Shown here piece by piece: positions 610 through 8,559 of a DNA stretch of 11,138 nucleotides. A program made the translations under genes and the position numbers. This DNA is from Spirochaetia bacterium. GTDB taxonomy: Bacteria; Spirochaetota; Spirochaetia; Treponematales; Breznakiellaceae. Every line of letters starts with the position of its first letter. Within the stretch, counting starts at the first letter, position 1. The notes beneath the pieces are model-generated. The model did not search any database. It was not told the origin of the DNA and saw nothing but the letters and a program-made list of their open reading frames with translations. Location of the stretch: assembly GCA_025997655.1 (NCBI GenBank), contig BNUW01000083.1, positions 1 to 11,138 on the forward strand, in the 5' to 3' direction.

Positions 610-2028
610 ATGGAAAAGTTGGTAGAAAAGGATTTGCAGGTCAGTGAGCTGGAGCAGGAAAAGGATCTGTTTGTCCGTATATTCAGACAATTAAGCGCTT
701 ACAAGGACCCCAACCAGTCCATTTCCGGCGTTTTAAAGGACACCAGTGATTTTTTTGGTTTTTTTGGCGCCTTCGTGTATGAGGCGGATCATGCCAAGGT
801 TTTTCATCTTTTTGAACATTATCGCGCTCCCGAGGCGGGGCTGCCGTCAACCCTGGTTCTACAAGATCATTTGAGTGAACCTGATTTAGAAGAATTGACC
901 CGGAAGCAGAGAGGAATCGTCTATCTAAAGTCCCGGAAAACCAAGCTGGGCGCCAAGTTTCTGGAACTATTTTCCGCCAAAACCCTGGTCATGATCCCCA
1001 TTTTTATTGAGCAGAAGGAACCCGTCGCGCTTATCGGCATGTTGGACCGGCGGCATCCTATCCGGCTGAGCGGGCGGCAAATCGTTGATGCCGACGCGGT
1101 ACTTTCGGTACTTGCGGGGCATATCAAGATGCGGGTCTACCAGAAACGGCTGGAATATGCCTATTCATCCCTGCGGAACCTGATTGATAAGGCGGGGGTT
1201 GAAATGTACGTCAACGACTTCTACACCCATGAACTGCTCTTTATCAACGAATCCCGCGCCGTTTCCCGGGGCGGGGTGGAGAAGCTCCTGGGTATGCCCT
1301 GCTGGAAAGCCCTGTACCCCTCAAGAACAGGGGAGTGTGATTTTTGTCCCAAGGACAAGCTGGTGGATGCGAAGGGGCACCCCACCCAGGCCTATACCTG
1401 GGATTTACAGCGCCCCAGTGATGGTTCATGGTTCAGGATGGTGAATGCCGCCATTAGATGGGTTGACGGCCGGCTTGCCCATGTGGTAAGTAGTATCAAC
1501 ATTACGGAGAATAAGTATAATGAAATGCTGGTGCGCCGCATGGCGGAATGCGACGCCCTGACAGCCCTGCCAAACCGGGGAAAATTGATTGAGGACCTGA
1601 ATAAGATGTTAAGCAGAGCGGTCCCGGACCAGGGAATAGGTTACCTGATATTCATCGATCTGGATGATTTCAAAGAGGCAAATGACACCCACGGTCATTT
1701 GCTGGGGGATGCCTTGCTGCGGCAAATCGGCCATTACCTGCTGAGTGAAAACAGGAACCTGGGCATGCCCTATCGGTACGGCGGTGATGAATTTGTTATT
1801 GTTGCCGAAAATAGAACAGAAGATGATCTGGGCCGTATCCGGGAGATACTGCTGAACCGGTTTTCCACCGAGTGGCGGATCGACGGCAATTCGATTATCT
1901 GCGGTATCAGCGCAGGGGCGGTCCCCTTGAAGAAAAAAACAGCGGAAGAACTTATTTACGCGGCGGACATGGCCATGTATGAAGTCAAAAAGAGCGGAAA
2001 ACACGGATTCCGCCTGAGTACTCAATAG
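610..2028 (+). CDS. Diguanylate cyclase with GAF-like and PAS-like sensor domains and C-terminal GGDEF domain
   Basis: Predicted to make cyclic di-GMP from two GTP. A short helical N-terminus (about 1-28) leads into a GAF-like region (about 30-175), a PAS-like region (about 185-300) and a GGDEF domain (about 308-472). Visible signatures are DALTALPNR (315-323), the metal-binding segment FIDLDDFKEAND (348-359) with Asp350, and an intact GGDEF at 391-395. The inhibitory I-site is degenerate: the expected RxxD upstream of the signature reads RNLG (382-385), so Arg remains but Asp is lost and product inhibition may be weak. The PAS-like region has three cysteines (231, 243, 246, the last two as CDFC), a pattern common in such PAS domains and possibly redox- or metal-sensing. 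There is no transmembrane segment, so it should be cytoplasmic. The ATG at 610 has an AGAAGGA ribosome-binding site. The acyl-CoA synthetase follows after 19 bases. The catalytic role is well supported; the ligand is unknown. Confidence 0.93.
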   Translation: MEKLVEKDLQVSELEQEKDLFVRIFRQLSAYKDPNQSISGVLKDTSDFFGFFGAFVYEADHAKVFHLFEHYRAPEAGLPSTLVLQDHLSEPDLEELTRKQRGIVYLKSRKTKLGAKFLELFSAKTLVMIPIFIEQKEPVALIGMLDRRHPIRLSGRQIVDADAVLSVLAGHIKMRVYQKRLEYAYSSLRNLIDKAGVEMYVNDFYTHELLFINESRAVSRGGVEKLLGMPCWKALYPSRTGECDFCPKDKLVDAKGHPTQAYTWDLQRPSDGSWFRMVNAAIRWVDGRLAHVVSSINITENKYNEMLVRRMAECDALTALPNRGKLIEDLNKMLSRAVPDQGIGYLIFIDLDDFKEANDTHGHLLGDALLRQIGHYLLSENRNLGMPYRYGGDEFVIVAENRTEDDLGRIREILLNRFSTEWRIDGNSIICGISAGAVPLKKKTAEELIYAADMAMYEVKKSGKHGFRLSTQ

Positions 2029-2047: not shown

Positions 2048-3778
2048 ATGCTTAAACCAGAAGATTATATCGCCGATTGGCCCGATATGCCTTATCACCA
2101 TTTTTCCGAGTGGCTTGAGGACCTCTCCACCCGGTGGGGCAGTAAGACCGCTCTATTTTACCGGTCCGGTAAGCAGAAAGAATTTACCCAATGGTCCTTT
2201 TCCCGGCTGACTGAGGAAAGCCGCCGCATTGGCCGGGGGCTCCTGGCTGCGGGGCTGGTCAAGGGCGACAGGGTTGCCCTCTGGTCGGAAAACCGTCCCG
2301 AGTGGATCGCCATCTGGCTTGGCGCGGTGATAGCGGGGCTGGTCATCGTACCCATCGACTTTCTTGTTTCCGAAAAGGAATGTACCAATATATTGAAGAT
2401 AACCAAGGCGGGGGCATTTTTTTATTCCGGCCGGAAGCGGGACTATGCCACAGATTTGCCTGCCCAGGGTATAACCCTCAAGGCGGCGGTCTGTATCAGC
2501 CAGGAGGGGGAGAATTTTTTTGAAGCCTTTGGCGCGGATGCGGAGAATCAGCGGCATTCTTCAACGGCGGAAATCGCCGGATCTGATCCGGCGTCAATCG
2601 TGTTCACTTCCGGTACTACCGGCTTTGCCAAGGGGGTTACCCTGAGCCATAAGGGGATCATCGCCAATTCCAACGCCGCTATTCGTTCCCTTCGGGCCTA
2701 TCCCTCTGATGTGTTCGTCAATGTCCTCCCTTTGCATCATACCTATCCTACCACCTGTTCCTTTATTTCCCCCCTTTCCGTGGGAGCCGCCATCCTCATT
2801 GTGGATAAGCTGGTGGGGAAGGTGGTCATCGACGATATCCGCGACGCCGGGGGGACATTCCTCATCGCGGTGCCCTTGCTTTACGACAAGGTGATGGCGG
2901 GAATTGCGAATGGCTACAATGCGCTGCCCGGGATTTTGCGGGTAATCCTGGACCCTCTGCGGAAAATAGCCCTGGAAAAGGCCAAAAAAGGGAACTATCA
3001 ATTTGGCCAGAGGGTGTTTATGTTTATCCGCAAAAAGACCGGGCTTGCTTCCATTCGGATAATGGTTGCCGGCGGTGGCCCCCTGAGCCCCAAAACGGCG
3101 GATTTTTTTGATTCCCTGGGCTTTAACATGGTTCACGGCTACGGCATGAGCGAAAACGGCCCCCTGATCAGCGTGAGTACCCCCTGGCATAAAAACAACG
3201 TTTCTGTGGGCCTGCCGGTAAAGTACACCGAGGTGAAGATCCTTGATAAGAACGAAGAGGGCATCGGGGAGATTGCGGTAAAATCCCCCTCCCTCATGCT
3301 TGGGTACTACGAAAACCCCGAAGCTACGGCGGAGACCTTTACTGAAGACGGTTGGCTCAAGACCGGGGACCTGGGCTTTATCGATGAGCAGGGCTTTATT
3401 TACATCAACGGCAGAAAGAAGAACCTCATCGTCAGTTCCGGGGGCAAGAATGTCTACCCCGAGGAAATCGAGGCCCACTTTGACGGGTCACGGGTTATCG
3501 CGGAGATTCTGGTGCTGGGCCGGAAGGAGCCGGACTACGGCGGGGAGGAGATCTTCGCCGTGGCGGTGCCCAACCTGGAAGCCCTGGAGCAGGATCATCC
3601 GGGTAAAACATTGGACGACAGCTTTATTCACGATTTGATGAAAAAGGAAATAGAAGCGGTGAATCGCAGCTTACCGGGGTATAAAAAAATTAGCGGCTTT
3701 GTCCTCCGCCGGGAGCCCTTTGAAAAGAACGCCCAGCAGAAGATACGCCGTTTTATGTATAAGAGCTACGAGAACTAA
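2048..3778 (+). CDS. AMP-forming long-chain acyl-CoA synthetase (FadD/FACS-like)
   Basis: Member of the ANL adenylating superfamily, expected to activate a fatty acid with ATP to acyl-AMP and transfer it to CoA. At 576 residues it has normal length. Core motifs are in order: the ATP P-loop TSGTTGFAKG (187-196), HGYGMSENGP (363-372), the adenine/ribose segment LKTGDLG (437-443) and the hinge-region INGRKKNLIVSSGGKNVYP (453-471). The C-terminal catalytic lysine is probably Lys565 in NAQQKIRR, although its surroundings differ from the usual K-x-x-x-G-K pattern. AGAGGAG at 2036-2042 precedes the ATG. Only 19 bases separate it from the diguanylate cyclase, so co-transcription is likely. Convergent accA/accD downstream put fatty-acid activation and malonyl-CoA formation side by side. 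Substrate chain length is not readable from the sequence; an aryl or short-chain acid cannot be excluded. Confidence 0.9.
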   Translation: MLKPEDYIADWPDMPYHHFSEWLEDLSTRWGSKTALFYRSGKQKEFTQWSFSRLTEESRRIGRGLLAAGLVKGDRVALWSENRPEWIAIWLGAVIAGLVIVPIDFLVSEKECTNILKITKAGAFFYSGRKRDYATDLPAQGITLKAAVCISQEGENFFEAFGADAENQRHSSTAEIAGSDPASIVFTSGTTGFAKGVTLSHKGIIANSNAAIRSLRAYPSDVFVNVLPLHHTYPTTCSFISPLSVGAAILIVDKLVGKVVIDDIRDAGGTFLIAVPLLYDKVMAGIANGYNALPGILRVILDPLRKIALEKAKKGNYQFGQRVFMFIRKKTGLASIRIMVAGGGPLSPKTADFFDSLGFNMVHGYGMSENGPLISVSTPWHKNNVSVGLPVKYTEVKILDKNEEGIGEIAVKSPSLMLGYYENPEATAETFTEDGWLKTGDLGFIDEQGFIYINGRKKNLIVSSGGKNVYPEEIEAHFDGSRVIAEILVLGRKEPDYGGEEIFAVAVPNLEALEQDHPGKTLDDSFIHDLMKKEIEAVNRSLPGYKKISGFVLRREPFEKNAQQKIRRFMYKSYEN

Positions 3779-3797
3779 GCCGTGTGTCGACAAAGCC

Positions 3798-3932
3798 GGG
3801 AGGGGAGGGGCATGCCGGGCGCTCATGCGGTTGGGGGAATCCACTCCGGGAGCCCGGCCCCAGGGGGCCCGAATAGGTCTCCCTACGCGGGGAAACCCAA
3901 ATGCATTCGGCCCGGCACGCCCCTCCCCTCCC
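3798..3932. repeat. GC-rich inverted repeat flanking a 89-base spacer
   Basis: The 23-base G-rich arm at 3798-3820 is the reverse complement of the C-rich arm at 3910-3932 with one mismatch. The right arm is part of the first 69-bp tandem unit, so the left arm could also pair with the related segments of units 2 (about 3979-4001) and 3 (about 4048-4070). The arms enclose a GC-rich stretch with a small CCCCAGGGGG palindrome. It begins 20 bases after the acyl-CoA synthetase stop and has no T-run, so it is not a classical terminator. Its function is unknown; a dispersed genomic repeat is likely. Confidence 0.8.
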
Positions 3933-4107
3933 GCTGCGTCGCCATTAAATCGCCGAACTGAGTGGGGAAATGCATTCGGCCCGCTACGTCCCTCCCTTCC
4001 CGCTGCGCCGCCATTAAATCGCCGAACTGAGTGGGGAAATGCATTCGGCCCGGCACGCCCCTCCCCGCCCGCTGCGCCGCCATTATATCGCTGAACTAAG
4101 AGTGAGA
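3901..4107. repeat. Three tandem 69-bp repeat units
   Basis: Units start at 3901, 3970 and 4039, each opening with ATGCATTCGGCCCG and containing CGCCATTAAATCG or a variant. Units 1 and 2 differ at about five of 69 positions; unit 3 is more diverged at its 3' end. The period is divisible by three, so frames on both strands stay open and read as 23-residue peptide repeats, but these frames lack a credible start and overlap the acyl-CoA synthetase end, so I treat the region as non-coding. There are no unique spacers, so this is not a CRISPR array. Degenerate fragments of the unit border (GGGGAA near ATGCA) recur near 3887-3904 and 4172-4190. The stretch 4108-4201 otherwise holds nothing I recognise. 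Confidence 0.9.
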
Positions 4108-4201
4108 ATACATCCTGCAAAGTATGCTCCGCGTATACAGTGGCGAAGCCCCCGCATAATCCCGCGCGCAAAGTGGGGAAGCCATGCACCTCCACATATG
4201 A

Positions 4202-5977: not shown

Positions 5978-6072
5978 AACCGCGAAGGTGCCAAAGGCGA
6001 CGAAGGAAAGAAAGAACAAGAGAATCGGGTCCAGGAAGTATTCTCTTCTTCTCCTTAGTCGCCTTTGCGGTT
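5978..6072. repeat. Imperfect inverted repeat with purine-rich arms
   Basis: The left arm (5978-6025) contains AACCGC, AAAGGCGAC, AAGGA and AAGAGAAT in order. The right arm (6040-6072) contains their complements in reverse order, with a 9-base bulge (GAAGGTGCC) and small mismatches in the left arm. The left arm itself is built from rough 9-base variants of GCGAAGG. On the plus strand the stem is followed by T residues (6071-6077) and resembles an intrinsic terminator, but no plus-strand gene ends upstream. It is probably a dispersed intergenic repeat. Confidence 0.6.
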
Positions 6073-6114: not shown

Positions 6115-6143
6115 TTGACATTCTTTTCGATTAGGGACAGAGT
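6115..6143 (+). promoter_or_regulatory. Candidate promoter of the alanine leader / aminotransferase unit
   Basis: A perfect -35 TTGACA lies at 6115-6120. At the ideal 17-base spacing the -10 position reads CAGAGT (6138-6143), only half matching consensus, so the assignment is tentative. If correct, transcription would start within a base or two of the leader ATG at 6151. Confidence 0.4.
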
Positions 6144-6150
6144 AATAGGT

Positions 6151-6225
6151 ATGAAAAACAGGGTGTCCCATAACCATGTATTCAGTCTCGCAGCGGCGGC
6201 CGCTATCCTGGAGGATCGCGGTTAG
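6151..6225 (+). CDS. Putative alanine-rich leader peptide of a transcription attenuator
   Basis: A 24-codon frame starting at ATG 6151 and ending with TAG 6223-6225. It reads MKNRVSHNHVFSL, then five consecutive alanine codons (GCA GCG GCG GCC GCT, 6190-6204), then ILEDRG. Size and layout match amino-acid biosynthetic leader peptides: a short polar start, a run of the regulatory residue, and a stop inside the RNA switch. Its last codons form segment 2 of the downstream attenuator, and its last two alanine codons form part of segment 1. A Shine-Dalgarno sequence is weak or absent (only AGG next to the ATG), but the candidate promoter would make the mRNA nearly leaderless. The frame was read directly from the sequence. 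Translation and alanine sensing are inferred. A chance GC-rich alanine run is the alternative. Confidence 0.6.
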   Translation: MKNRVSHNHVFSLAAAAAILEDRG

Positions 6226-6282
6226 CCCTTCGTTATAAGAAGTAGGGGCCGTGATCCTCCGATGGGATCGCGGCTTTTTTTT
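6200..6282 (+). promoter_or_regulatory. Ribosome-mediated attenuator with three alternative stems upstream of the aminotransferase
   Basis: Segment 1 (6200-6208) pairs with part of segment 2 (6213-6221), 8 of 9 bp with a 4-base loop. Segment 2 (6210-6221) pairs with segment 3 (6249-6260) over 12 bp including one G-U, forming an antiterminator. Segment 3 (6248-6257) pairs with segment 4 (6265-6274) over 10 bp, forming a terminator. The 1:2 and 3:4 pairings each exclude 2:3, as in trp/his leaders. A ribosome stalled on the alanine codons would cover segment 1 and favour 2:3 (readthrough); one reaching the stop would cover segment 2 and favour 3:4 (termination). Confidence 0.72.
6248..6282 (+). 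terminator. Intrinsic terminator of the attenuator
   Basis: A 10-bp stem (6248-6257 with 6265-6274, one G-U pair) with a 7-base loop is followed directly by eight T residues (6275-6282). It lies 73 bases before the aminotransferase start and does not follow any full-length gene, so it is best read as a conditional terminator in the leader. Confidence 0.85.
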
Positions 6283-6355
6283 GCCCAATCGGTGGAAAGA
6301 AAGGCGTACTCCCCAGAGGAAACAGCCGGAACTAAAGTTCCTTGAGGAGTAAAAA

Positions 6356-7678
6356 GTGAGAAGAGACATCGTTCACCCCGGCGCGGGGAAGTTAAAGTAC
6401 GAGATTCGGGAAATCGTCGCCTTTGCCCGGAGTTTAAGCCGGTGGAATATCCCTATCCGGTGGGAGAACATCGGTGACCCGGTGAAGAAGGGTGAGCCGA
6501 TTGCTCAATGGATCAAGGATATTGTCCGGGAAAAGGCGGGGGAGGATCTGTCCTACGCGTATTCGGAGACCGAGGGCGCCCGGGAAGCCCGGGAATTTTT
6601 ATCAGCCCAGGTGAATAATCGGCCAAAGCCGGCTGGGTGTCCGGACCCGGTAAAAATTGAAACCGATGATATTCTCTTTTTTAATGGCCTGGGGGATGCG
6701 GTGGCCAAGGTTTTTGGGTTCCTTCGCCGGGAAGCCCGTGTGCTGGGTCCTTCCCCGGCCTATTCCACCCTGTCCTCCGCCGAAGCCGCCCATTCGGGCT
6801 ACGAGCATCTGACCTACCGGCTGGACCCCAACCGGGACTGGATGCCCGACATGGAGGACGTGGAACTTAAGGTTAAGTATAACGATTCCGTGGCGGGGCT
6901 CCTCCTCATCAACCCCGACAATCCCACCGGCGCGGTGTATCCCCTGGAAATTTTGCAGGAATTTGTCCGTATCGCCCGAACCTACGGCCTGTTCATCGTC
7001 TGCGACGAAACCTATGCCAATATCGTGTACGGGGGCGCCAAGACCGCCGCCCTTTCCCAAGTTATCGACGGCGTTCCCGGTCTGGCCCTGCGCTCCCTGT
7101 CCAAGGAGGTCCCCTGGCCGGGCGCCCGCTGCGGCTGGGTTGAGGTGTACAATCGCCACTCGGATAAGCGTTTTGATACCTACGTGCGGAGCCTGCTGGA
7201 TGCCAAGCGCCTTGAGGTCTGTTCCACCAGTCTGCCCCAGCTCTGTATCCCCGCCATCATAGGGGATCCCCGCTACCCGGATCACCTAATCCACCGGGCC
7301 GCCATGTTTGAAAAACGCGCCGAAGAAGCCGCCGCCGCCTTTACCGGTATCAAGGGGATCAGCCTGAAAAAACCCCGGGGCGCCCTCTACGCCACCGCAG
7401 TTTTCGATCCCGGTATCCTCGACGCGCTCATCCCCCGCAGCCTCCCGGTTTCCGACCCCTCCCTGGCGGAATACATCCGGGAACAAACCGCCAATGTTGC
7501 GCCGGACAAACGGTTCGTCTACTGGCTGTTGGCATCCGCCGGTATTTGTGTGGTTCCCCTCTCCGGGTTTGCCAGCGATCTCCCGGGCTTCCGGTTTACG
7601 TTACTGGAATATGATGATGAAAAGCGCCGGCAGATTTACCGGGCCATGGGACACGCGGTGAAGCAATATCTGAATTAG
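6356..7678 (+). CDS. PLP-dependent class I/II aminotransferase, candidate alanine aminotransferase
   Basis: A fold-type I aminotransferase of 440 residues. Visible motifs are YAYSETEGAREAREFL (68-83), LINPDNPTGAVYP (184-196), CDETYANIVY (216-225) with the PLP-ring Asp217, the Schiff-base lysine Lys250 in SLSKEVPWPGARCGW (247-261), and the substrate-carboxylate Arg413 in FRFTLLEYD. The INPDNPTGAVY and SLSK-GxRxGW segments resemble AlaA-type glutamate-pyruvate transaminases, but sequence alone does not settle specificity; aspartate or aromatic substrates remain possible. The start is GTG at 6356: TTGAGGAG (6342-6349) lies six bases upstream and an in-frame TAA at 6350-6352 blocks any earlier start. 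The alanine-coding attenuator directly upstream supports a role in alanine formation. Its stop overlaps that of the convergent glycosidase by four bases. Confidence 0.9.
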   Translation: MRRDIVHPGAGKLKYEIREIVAFARSLSRWNIPIRWENIGDPVKKGEPIAQWIKDIVREKAGEDLSYAYSETEGAREAREFLSAQVNNRPKPAGCPDPVKIETDDILFFNGLGDAVAKVFGFLRREARVLGPSPAYSTLSSAEAAHSGYEHLTYRLDPNRDWMPDMEDVELKVKYNDSVAGLLLINPDNPTGAVYPLEILQEFVRIARTYGLFIVCDETYANIVYGGAKTAALSQVIDGVPGLALRSLSKEVPWPGARCGWVEVYNRHSDKRFDTYVRSLLDAKRLEVCSTSLPQLCIPAIIGDPRYPDHLIHRAAMFEKRAEEAAAAFTGIKGISLKKPRGALYATAVFDPGILDALIPRSLPVSDPSLAEYIREQTANVAPDKRFVYWLLASAGICVVPLSGFASDLPGFRFTLLEYDDEKRRQIYRAMGHAVKQYLN

Positions 7679-8559
7679 TATGTCCTAATCCCCAGACACG
7701 CAGCCACCGCCCGTTCTTTACCGGGGATGAGGTCGTGGATGGGGATGTTTACCGGGCGGATCTTCCCGTCGGGATAGCGCAGAACCAGTGCGGTGGAGCC
7801 CCCGCCGTCAAAGTTGAGGCCGTCATCGGCGCCCAGTCGTTTCAGGATGACGCCGATTTCTTCTTCTGTTGCGCCCACGCTTCCCAAACGCCTGCCGTCA
7901 ATCGCCAGCAGGTAGAGGGTTTTCCCGTCCGCAGAGAGTCCCGTAGCGCTCCGGGGGTGCCGTGCAGCACGCCGGGTGTCCATAGCGAGTATTCGATCCG
8001 GAATTGCGCCGTCCCGCAGCACCACGAAAAATCCCCCCAGGGCATTACGGAGGTTTGCCAGGGTTTCGGCGTCCAAATCCCCCTGGTTTACAATTGCGGC
8101 GGAACCATCCTGATAAAAGACCAGCGCGTCAAACCGGGGGTTGGGCGGCGCGGCCAGGAAACCATCGGCCACCGCAATCCCCACGATGGTCCGGTCTTCC
8201 CCAACCACCGCCGAAACCGGGGCAAAGGGGGTGGCGTTGATCCCCGCGATACAGTCATAGTCCCGGACAAAGCCGCTGATGGTGGTACTCCTGGTGTCCC
8301 CGTTCACGACGAATTCCAGGTCGGGATTGCTCAGGTCAACACGGAGCGCCCAAAACGCCAGCCGGGGTTTCCCGGTACGCCCCTCGACGTAATCAATTCC
8401 GGGGGCAAAAGACTCCCATTGGGGGACCAATTCCCCCGGCACGGCGGCTCGAAGGGGAAACGAATCCGGGGGTGTGGTCAGTGGAGAGACGGACGCGCAG
8501 GAGAAAAAAAGTGAAATGAGGAACAGTGATAGGGGAATTAAGCTGAGCGTTTTTCTCAT
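7675..8559 (-). CDS. Putative lipoprotein with phosphodiester glycosidase (NAGPA/DUF2233) domain
   Basis: 294 residues. The N-terminus MRKTLSLIPLSLFLISLFFS followed by Cys21 is a lipoprotein signal peptide with a spirochaete-style lipobox (Leu-Phe-Phe-Ser-Cys), so the protein is probably anchored to the envelope. The rest matches the phosphodiester glycosidase family (PF09992): GINATPF (106-112, the family's GxNGxxF position), RHPRSATGLSADGKTLYLLA (200-219), DGLNFDGGGSTALV (246-259, hallmark DGGGS) and RAVAACLGI (283-291). Known members remove GlcNAc from phosphodiester-linked glycans; bacterial substrates are mostly unknown and may be cell-wall or envelope glycans. The start has no strong ribosome-binding site. 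It lies 15 bases after the TSCPD gene, so coupled expression is likely. Four bases of its stop are shared with the convergent aminotransferase. Confidence 0.88.
   Translation of the reverse strand: MRKTLSLIPLSLFLISLFFSCASVSPLTTPPDSFPLRAAVPGELVPQWESFAPGIDYVEGRTGKPRLAFWALRVDLSNPDLEFVVNGDTRSTTISGFVRDYDCIAGINATPFAPVSAVVGEDRTIVGIAVADGFLAAPPNPRFDALVFYQDGSAAIVNQGDLDAETLANLRNALGGFFVVLRDGAIPDRILAMDTRRAARHPRSATGLSADGKTLYLLAIDGRRLGSVGATEEEIGVILKRLGADDGLNFDGGGSTALVLRYPDGKIRPVNIPIHDLIPGKERAVAACLGIRTY

Follow-up and report, generated by a model that had tools for sequence, protein, structure and literature searches.

A predicted leaderless attenuator with an alanine run ahead of a putative alanine aminotransferase gene in Spirochaetia

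A leader with five alanine codons precedes an aminotransferase gene

The window analysed here, the whole 11,138-nucleotide stretch of contig BNUW01000083.1 from a Spirochaetia bacterium, carries on its forward strand a short leader open reading frame (ORF) followed by a gene for a PLP aminotransferase. The leader ORF extends from an ATG at 6151 to a TAG at 6223–6225 and comprises 24 codons (peptide MKNRVSHNHVFSLAAAAAILEDRG), of which codons 14–18 form an uninterrupted run of five alanine codons (GCA GCG GCG GCC GCT, 6190–6204), the proposed sensor. Three alternative stems can be formed between the end of this frame and the sequence beyond it. Segment 1 (6200–6208) meets 6213–6221 in eight pairs and one U·C mismatch. 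Segment 2 (6210–6221), made up of the final codons ahead of the stop, is the candidate antiterminator partner of segment 3 and forms twelve pairs, one being G·U, with 6249–6260. Segment 3 (6248–6260) can pair with segment 2 or, through ten pairs of 6248–6257, one being U·G, with segment 4 (6265–6274), the 3′ arm of an intrinsic terminator that has eight T residues (6275–6282; U8 in the RNA) directly after it. A preliminary description had placed the frame, the alanine codons, the three stems and the T tract at these positions, and direct reading confirms them. The region 6130–6356 folds to −83.5 kcal/mol, compared with −66.1 (s.d. 4.5) for 200 dinucleotide shuffles, none of which was as low (3.9 s.d. 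below), and the 2:3 duplex exceeds shuffles of segment 2 (p 0.002).

Ahead of the leader lies a promoter-like pair, TTGACA-17-CAGAGT, consisting of a −35 element (6115–6120) and a −10-like element (6138–6143; assigned by consensus match only) that ends 7 nt ahead of the leader ATG. No clear Shine–Dalgarno site was seen for the window leader, in contrast to the Shine–Dalgarno-like GAGGAG (6344–6349) of the aminotransferase gene. This spacing recurs in 25 leaders drawn from the two sets of relatives described below: 23 of them have TTGAC 34–39 bases ahead of the leader ATG, G004 has TAGAC at −36 in place of TTGAC, and G339 has neither motif ahead of the start used, with a TAGAC 34 bases ahead of an in-frame ATG further upstream. 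The best −10-like hexamer ends 6–9 nt ahead of the ATG in 24 of the 25 and, by eye, the leaders share no Shine–Dalgarno site. Because of the promoter spacing and the absent shared Shine–Dalgarno site, transcription is predicted to start at or beside the leader AUG, which would make the leader leaderless. The promoter-like pair, this predicted start and the class-wide spread reported below go beyond the preliminary description.

The putatively regulated gene (6356–7678, GTG start) matches NF005334 (PRK06855) at 601 bits against a cut-off of 443, a family whose name is silent on the substrate. Searching the PDB with a profile of 13 family members placed the glutamate-pyruvate aminotransferase AlaA first (4CVQ, E 1.3e-55) and a putative transaminase second (1XI9, 1.1e-53); 3TCM came third and 3IHJ sixth, both being entries named alanine aminotransferase 2, with tyrosine aminotransferases in the two places between them. 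The same top two, 4CVQ and 1XI9, were returned by a single-protein search with the window aminotransferase. As tyrosine aminotransferases rank fourth and fifth, alanine is put forward only as the likely substrate or product, and the gene is annotated as a predicted alanine aminotransferase. The leader, if it works as proposed below, would in turn hint at alanine as the likely product of PRK06855 aminotransferases. The next downstream ORF with a Pfam match (7675–8559) lies on the opposite strand.

Close relatives retain the frame and the alanine run

Among 57 genomes, the window's own counted, 11 others encode an orthologue (E < 1e-150). The leader lies upstream of eight of these (G001, G004, G003, G020, G025, G031, G034 and G018) and is absent upstream of those in G005 and G021; the G010 orthologue lies at a contig edge. 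A covariance model of nine leaders matched 14 of 195 genomes of the window's family at E < 1e-24, the window's own included, and all 14 matches lie directly ahead of an NF005334 gene. These 14, together with the leader of G034 from a second family of the order, make up a close set of 15.

The leader ORF has 24 codons in 14 of the 15 close leaders and 23 in G208, and the run has five alanines in 14 and four in G018. Conservation of the run and the frame, which the preliminary description had named as the property to look for in homologous leaders, is thus found in 15 of 15, window included; selection accounts for part of this agreement, the search model itself having been made from leaders of this type, and the gene-first count below is fairer. 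The first 12 codons vary freely with the frame kept. The run begins at codon 14 in 13 of the 15, and at the same codon in 17 of 25 leaders of both sets. Except in G018, the first alanine codon is GCA or GCC and the second and third are GCG or GCA. Paired cells amount to 96.7% for stem 1:2, 95.0% for 2:3 and 96.0% for 3:4. Stem 2:3 has no double change and 3:4 has two double-change pairs, none above shuffles in this highly conserved set; covariation was rejected as the main proof because the close set is too conserved. A separate feature of these leaders is a near-invariant GTCTCGC just ahead of the alanine run (6185–6191 in the window), outside the three stems.

Counting from the gene shows a class-wide spread

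A count that starts from the gene was made on orthologues with at least 240 bases upstream, leaving out G010, G093, G132, G133, G134, G404, G390, G651 and G728 (short upstream region or partial gene match). We define the strict form as an ORF with at least four alanines in a row whose ATG start has TTGAC 33–40 bases ahead of it. The gene is present in 27 of 195 genomes of the window's family, and of the 22 judged, 14 are preceded by an ORF with four or more consecutive alanines (13 in strict form) and eight are not. In the class as sampled, 42 of 394 genomes carry the gene; 37 belong to families other than the window's, and 35 of these have the required upstream length. A short ORF containing four or more consecutive alanines occurs in 25 of the 35, 22 in strict form. 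An alanine run thus precedes 14 of 22 and 25 of 35 orthologues. No leader of any kind was found for 8 of 22 family and 8 of 35 other-family orthologues, and the two remaining ones, G563 and G667, have leaders with the TTGAC spacing of the strict form and scattered alanines. The record L129, taken as G133, lacks a four-alanine ORF.

Beyond the class, no ORF with at least four alanines, and no strict form, was found among 34 orthologues from other classes of the phylum. In other phyla, such an ORF was found in 1 of 62 and the strict form in 0 of 62, this set being the best 80 of 574 matches less 18 with spirochaete-naming titles, where some titles read just 'bacterium'. Neither reversed strands (0 of 35, 0 of 22) nor mononucleotide-shuffled regions (0 of 350) gave a strict form. 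The loose form occurs in 7 of 35 reversed class upstream regions, and taken by itself the loose count is therefore too generous. In the family 13 of 22 orthologues, and in the class 22 of 35, have a terminator of some kind upstream, compared with 2 of 34 in other classes and 4 of 62 in other phyla (from the best 80 of 574).

Leaders of other class families are exemplified by MKHTNLSSQHLHLAAAAAAAATMVGPL, MTIPTEQREKNSNAAAAGTRCLPHSGML, MIVRSSDVQILLAAAAAAP and MCLDKQKSAVTMPRIAAAAAAAGKARAAVNGRISFRE. Between families the peptides have little in common save the alanine run, which mostly starts after 10–16 codons, and all four alanine codons are in use. In a quick 88-enzyme tree, most class lineages have the leader, whose distribution needs ten changes, versus about 30 for shuffled labels. 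This tree includes 16 of 34 other-class and 14 of 62 other-phyla rows (from the best 80 of 574), is rooted at its midpoint for drawing only and has outside rows branching among class rows; we read it as an early gain followed by several losses. Three genomes, G091 (L097), G090 (L099) and G092 (L106), lack the leader and have a TTGACA promoter about 39 bases ahead of the aminotransferase's own ATG, the arrangement that excision of the attenuator, but not of the promoter, would leave.

Folding predicts a switch between antiterminator and terminator

The antiterminator duplex, in which the final codons of the leader pair with the 5′ arm of the terminator, is stronger than in shuffles for 24 of 35 leaders (p < 0.05), comprising 14 of 14 close leaders and 10 of 21 others; in 11 of the 21 outside the close set it is not above shuffles. 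Fisher's combined value for those 21, which are non-independent, is 6.5e-8. In the close set and many other leaders, the duplex region spans about 15 bases ahead of the stop codon up to the stop, and the terminator starts about 20 bases past it. An automatic rule called no terminator for G625, G557, G620, G339 and G208. The G208 terminator is present with a larger loop, and in L139, where the automatic call is wrong, a terminator is seen by eye as GCTGCGGT/ACCGCAGC against AACCGCAGCCG/CGGATGCGGTT followed by T7. What supports the stems is thus that the pairing recurs in leaders of unlike sequence, though not in all of them.

Folding of the complete leader at equilibrium, with the whole terminator present, gives a switch in 11 of 34 leaders, the window among them. 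As terminators tend to win at equilibrium, folding of the nascent RNA was added, with the ribosome either at the alanine codons (A site on the first three) or at the stop codon. Under thresholds of 0.5 and 0.3, a switch is predicted in 28 of 34 leaders (13 of 14 close, 15 of 20 other). The mean probability that segment 3 is paired upstream is 0.97 (close) and 0.82 (other) in the alanine state and 0.14 and 0.20 with the ribosome at the stop, a drop that is partly automatic, less RNA being free. Shuffling the stretch between lowers the alanine-state probability to 0.54 (close) and 0.55 (other), and 13 of 14 close and 11 of 20 other leaders exceed at least 57 of 60 shuffles in that state. Given the equilibrium result of 11 of 34, the antiterminator in most leaders would need to win by forming first. 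For the window leader without a ribosome, the terminator is predicted not to form at equilibrium (0.00), unlike in the textbook trp leader, where it forms without a ribosome.

A proposed alanine-sensing attenuator and its alternatives

Taking the codons, stems, terminator, promoter-like spacing, conservation and program-predicted switch together, we infer transcription start, translation, termination, alanine response and enzyme specificity as follows. RNA polymerase would start at or beside the leader AUG, leaving the transcript with a bare 5′ end that a ribosome could load onto. When alanine is ample, the ribosome would reach the stop codon and cover segment 2, leaving segment 3 to pair with segment 4, and transcription would end at 6275–6282. 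With alanine short, the ribosome would wait at codons 14–18 and cover segment 1; segment 2 would then pair with segment 3, no terminator would form and the aminotransferase would be made. The leader is thus very likely to attenuate transcription by way of the ribosome in response to charged tRNA-Ala, and so to control an aminotransferase predicted to form alanine, and the attenuator is probably alanine-specific, leaderless and old in the class. The preliminary description had proposed a ribosome-mediated attenuator sensing alanine, and the relatives from the gene-first count and the folding lend that interpretation support.

Could the leader be a general translation-stress sensor of the whiB7/toiL type, stalling on antibiotics or on shortage of any amino acid, with alanine incidental? 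Passages of PMC12121999 describe chloramphenicol as stalling ribosomes best just past Ala, Ser or Thr codons, and whiB7 uORFs respond to antibiotics and to amino-acid shortage according to sections of PMC13393426 and PMC11550727. The gene controlled here, however, is a predicted alanine aminotransferase and no resistance factor, and the alanine run persists in leader after leader that is otherwise different, which makes such a sensor very improbable. Less probable still is an arrest peptide, in which nascent SLAAAAAI(x)EDRG would stall the ribosome on a small molecule and not on charged tRNA-Ala: leaders of other families retain the alanines without SL or EDRG, and the residues past the run are conserved because segment 2 encodes them. 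What an arrest peptide would account for is the joint conservation, in close leaders, of these residues and of the Ser-Leu ahead of the run, which lies outside the three stems.

The very high nucleotide identity around the run and segment 2 in the close set, with GTCTCGC conserved outside the stems, would also suit a riboswitch or protein-binding RNA whose binding site comprises these letters and for which translation is irrelevant. Yet in other families the letters are gone and the ORF, the alanine run, the promoter spacing and, in most, a terminator remain; the close leader ORFs vary in length just once, in G208, and by a whole codon; and no Rfam family matches the window at gathering score. 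We consider this reading extremely unlikely, and place in the same position an ordinary terminator beside a chance ORF, with no regulation. Alanine-rich short frames are not rare in GC-rich DNA, as the 7 of 35 reversed regions with a four-alanine ORF attest, but requiring the promoter spacing leaves 22 of 35 and 13 of 22 orthologues and none of the reversed or shuffled controls.

Relation to known leaders

The trp and his leaders of enteric bacteria consist of a leader ORF with codons for the product, segments 1–4 and a U-tract terminator. The window has in common with them the run of product codons, the four segments, the position of segment 2 at the leader stop and the U-tract terminator, and differs in its amino acid, alanine and not Trp or His, and in a predicted leaderless start in place of a Shine–Dalgarno site.

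Leaderless sensors have been described elsewhere. The transcript of Sinorhizobium meliloti trpL/rnTrpL starts with the ATG of the leader ORF and is involved in transcription attenuation of an amino-acid gene, as set out in passages of PMC7298713; that system concerns tryptophan, has a 14-residue leader and belongs to the Alphaproteobacteria. Mycobacterial polycysteine leaderless ORFs respond to cysteine, going by the title of Canestrari 2020 (a reference entry in PMC13236596), and resemble the window leader in being short ORFs with a single amino acid repeated, there cysteine, and in a leaderless start, which for the window is a prediction. In the portion of PMC1262725 on candidate mycobacterial Cys leaders, no conserved terminator hairpin was found, whereas most leaders here have one. 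Of the regulatory codons in uORFC-8-2, which precedes cysS in Rhodobacterales, an excerpt of PMC8632094 states that they usually occupy positions 14 and 15, compared with a run that here opens on codon 14 in 17 of the 25 leaders; uORFC-8-2 differs in concerning cysteine and a tRNA synthetase gene.

In whiB7/wblC, translation of a uORF sets the choice between terminator and antiterminator (sections of PMC13393426 and PMC11550727). Alanine-linked attenuation as such has precedent, because alanine starvation affects the mycobacterial whiB7 response, judging by the title of the Poulton 2024 reference and citing passages, which link it to the alanine gene aspC (PMC13236596). The gene under the whiB7 uORF encodes a transcription factor responding to many translation stresses, and the uORF does not serve as a dedicated leader for an alanine enzyme. 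In the literature on leaders and attenuators, on whiB7 and on AlaA, with few subscription papers covered, we found no dedicated alanine leader of an alanine enzyme. The kind of attenuation is known; the use of alanine, and its combination with a leaderless start, appear to be new.

If the proposed mechanism is true, alanine, among the commonest amino acids, would join those sensed by dedicated ribosome-mediated attenuators, and attenuator control need not rest on rare codons. The spread would suggest an old trait of a whole spirochaete class, lost several times, and a further lineage, beside rhizobia and mycobacteria, would use a leaderless ORF as a sensor. The leader might be more than an alanine meter: with a start on its AUG, whole 70S ribosomes would read it, so that translation might continue under impaired initiation and the leader might also answer antibiotics that cause stalling after alanine. 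The terminated leaderless RNA of about 130 nt, set free at ample alanine, might act in trans like rnTrpL of S. meliloti, which would put it at the heart of a regulon for alanine in Spirochaetia. We regard this wider role as improbable.

Further observations

Weak matches of the covariance model were read at eight loci (L046, L047, L048, L051, L053, L055, L056 and L058), none of which is an alanine leader ahead of an aminotransferase. L049, L054, L057 and L059 fall outside these eight, L049 being the reverse strand of a true leader, and the weak matches in G548 and G563 are divergent leaders ahead of the same aminotransferase gene. At L058 (G044; 1501–1613, minus strand), an ORF, MAVSARNGIIIISSIIITPGMMKEE, is followed by a terminator and then by an ORF that resembles acetolactate synthase by eye; this is a candidate isoleucine attenuator from a different family within the order. 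The expectation in the preliminary description that a spirochaete example would be unusual may therefore be too strong, given this isoleucine-run leader in the same order. The motif was not found in viral contigs. Among the matches listed, the sole remaining lead in other phyla is L175, a Planctomycetota orthologue with an alanine-rich ORF, MNARPCLNRFDGITAARIAAAIATSAAR, upstream of 1501, a possible Shine–Dalgarno site and no clear terminator; it is perhaps an independent alanine leader.

Within the window, ACTCC at 6308–6312 is able to pair with GGAGT (6346–6350) of the aminotransferase Shine–Dalgarno site, and the same letters occur in L003, L004 and L005; a second layer of control in the window's genus is possible. 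Upstream of the promoter, 5978–6072 holds an imperfect 28-base inverted repeat (79%), and the near-identical genome G001 has, by eye, a different inverted repeat at this position, perhaps indicating a small mobile repeat. Between the acyl-CoA ligase gene and accA (3671–4195), ORFs overlap on both strands, and the one on the forward strand has repeated 'NAFGPARPSPPAAPPLNRRTEWG'-like units.
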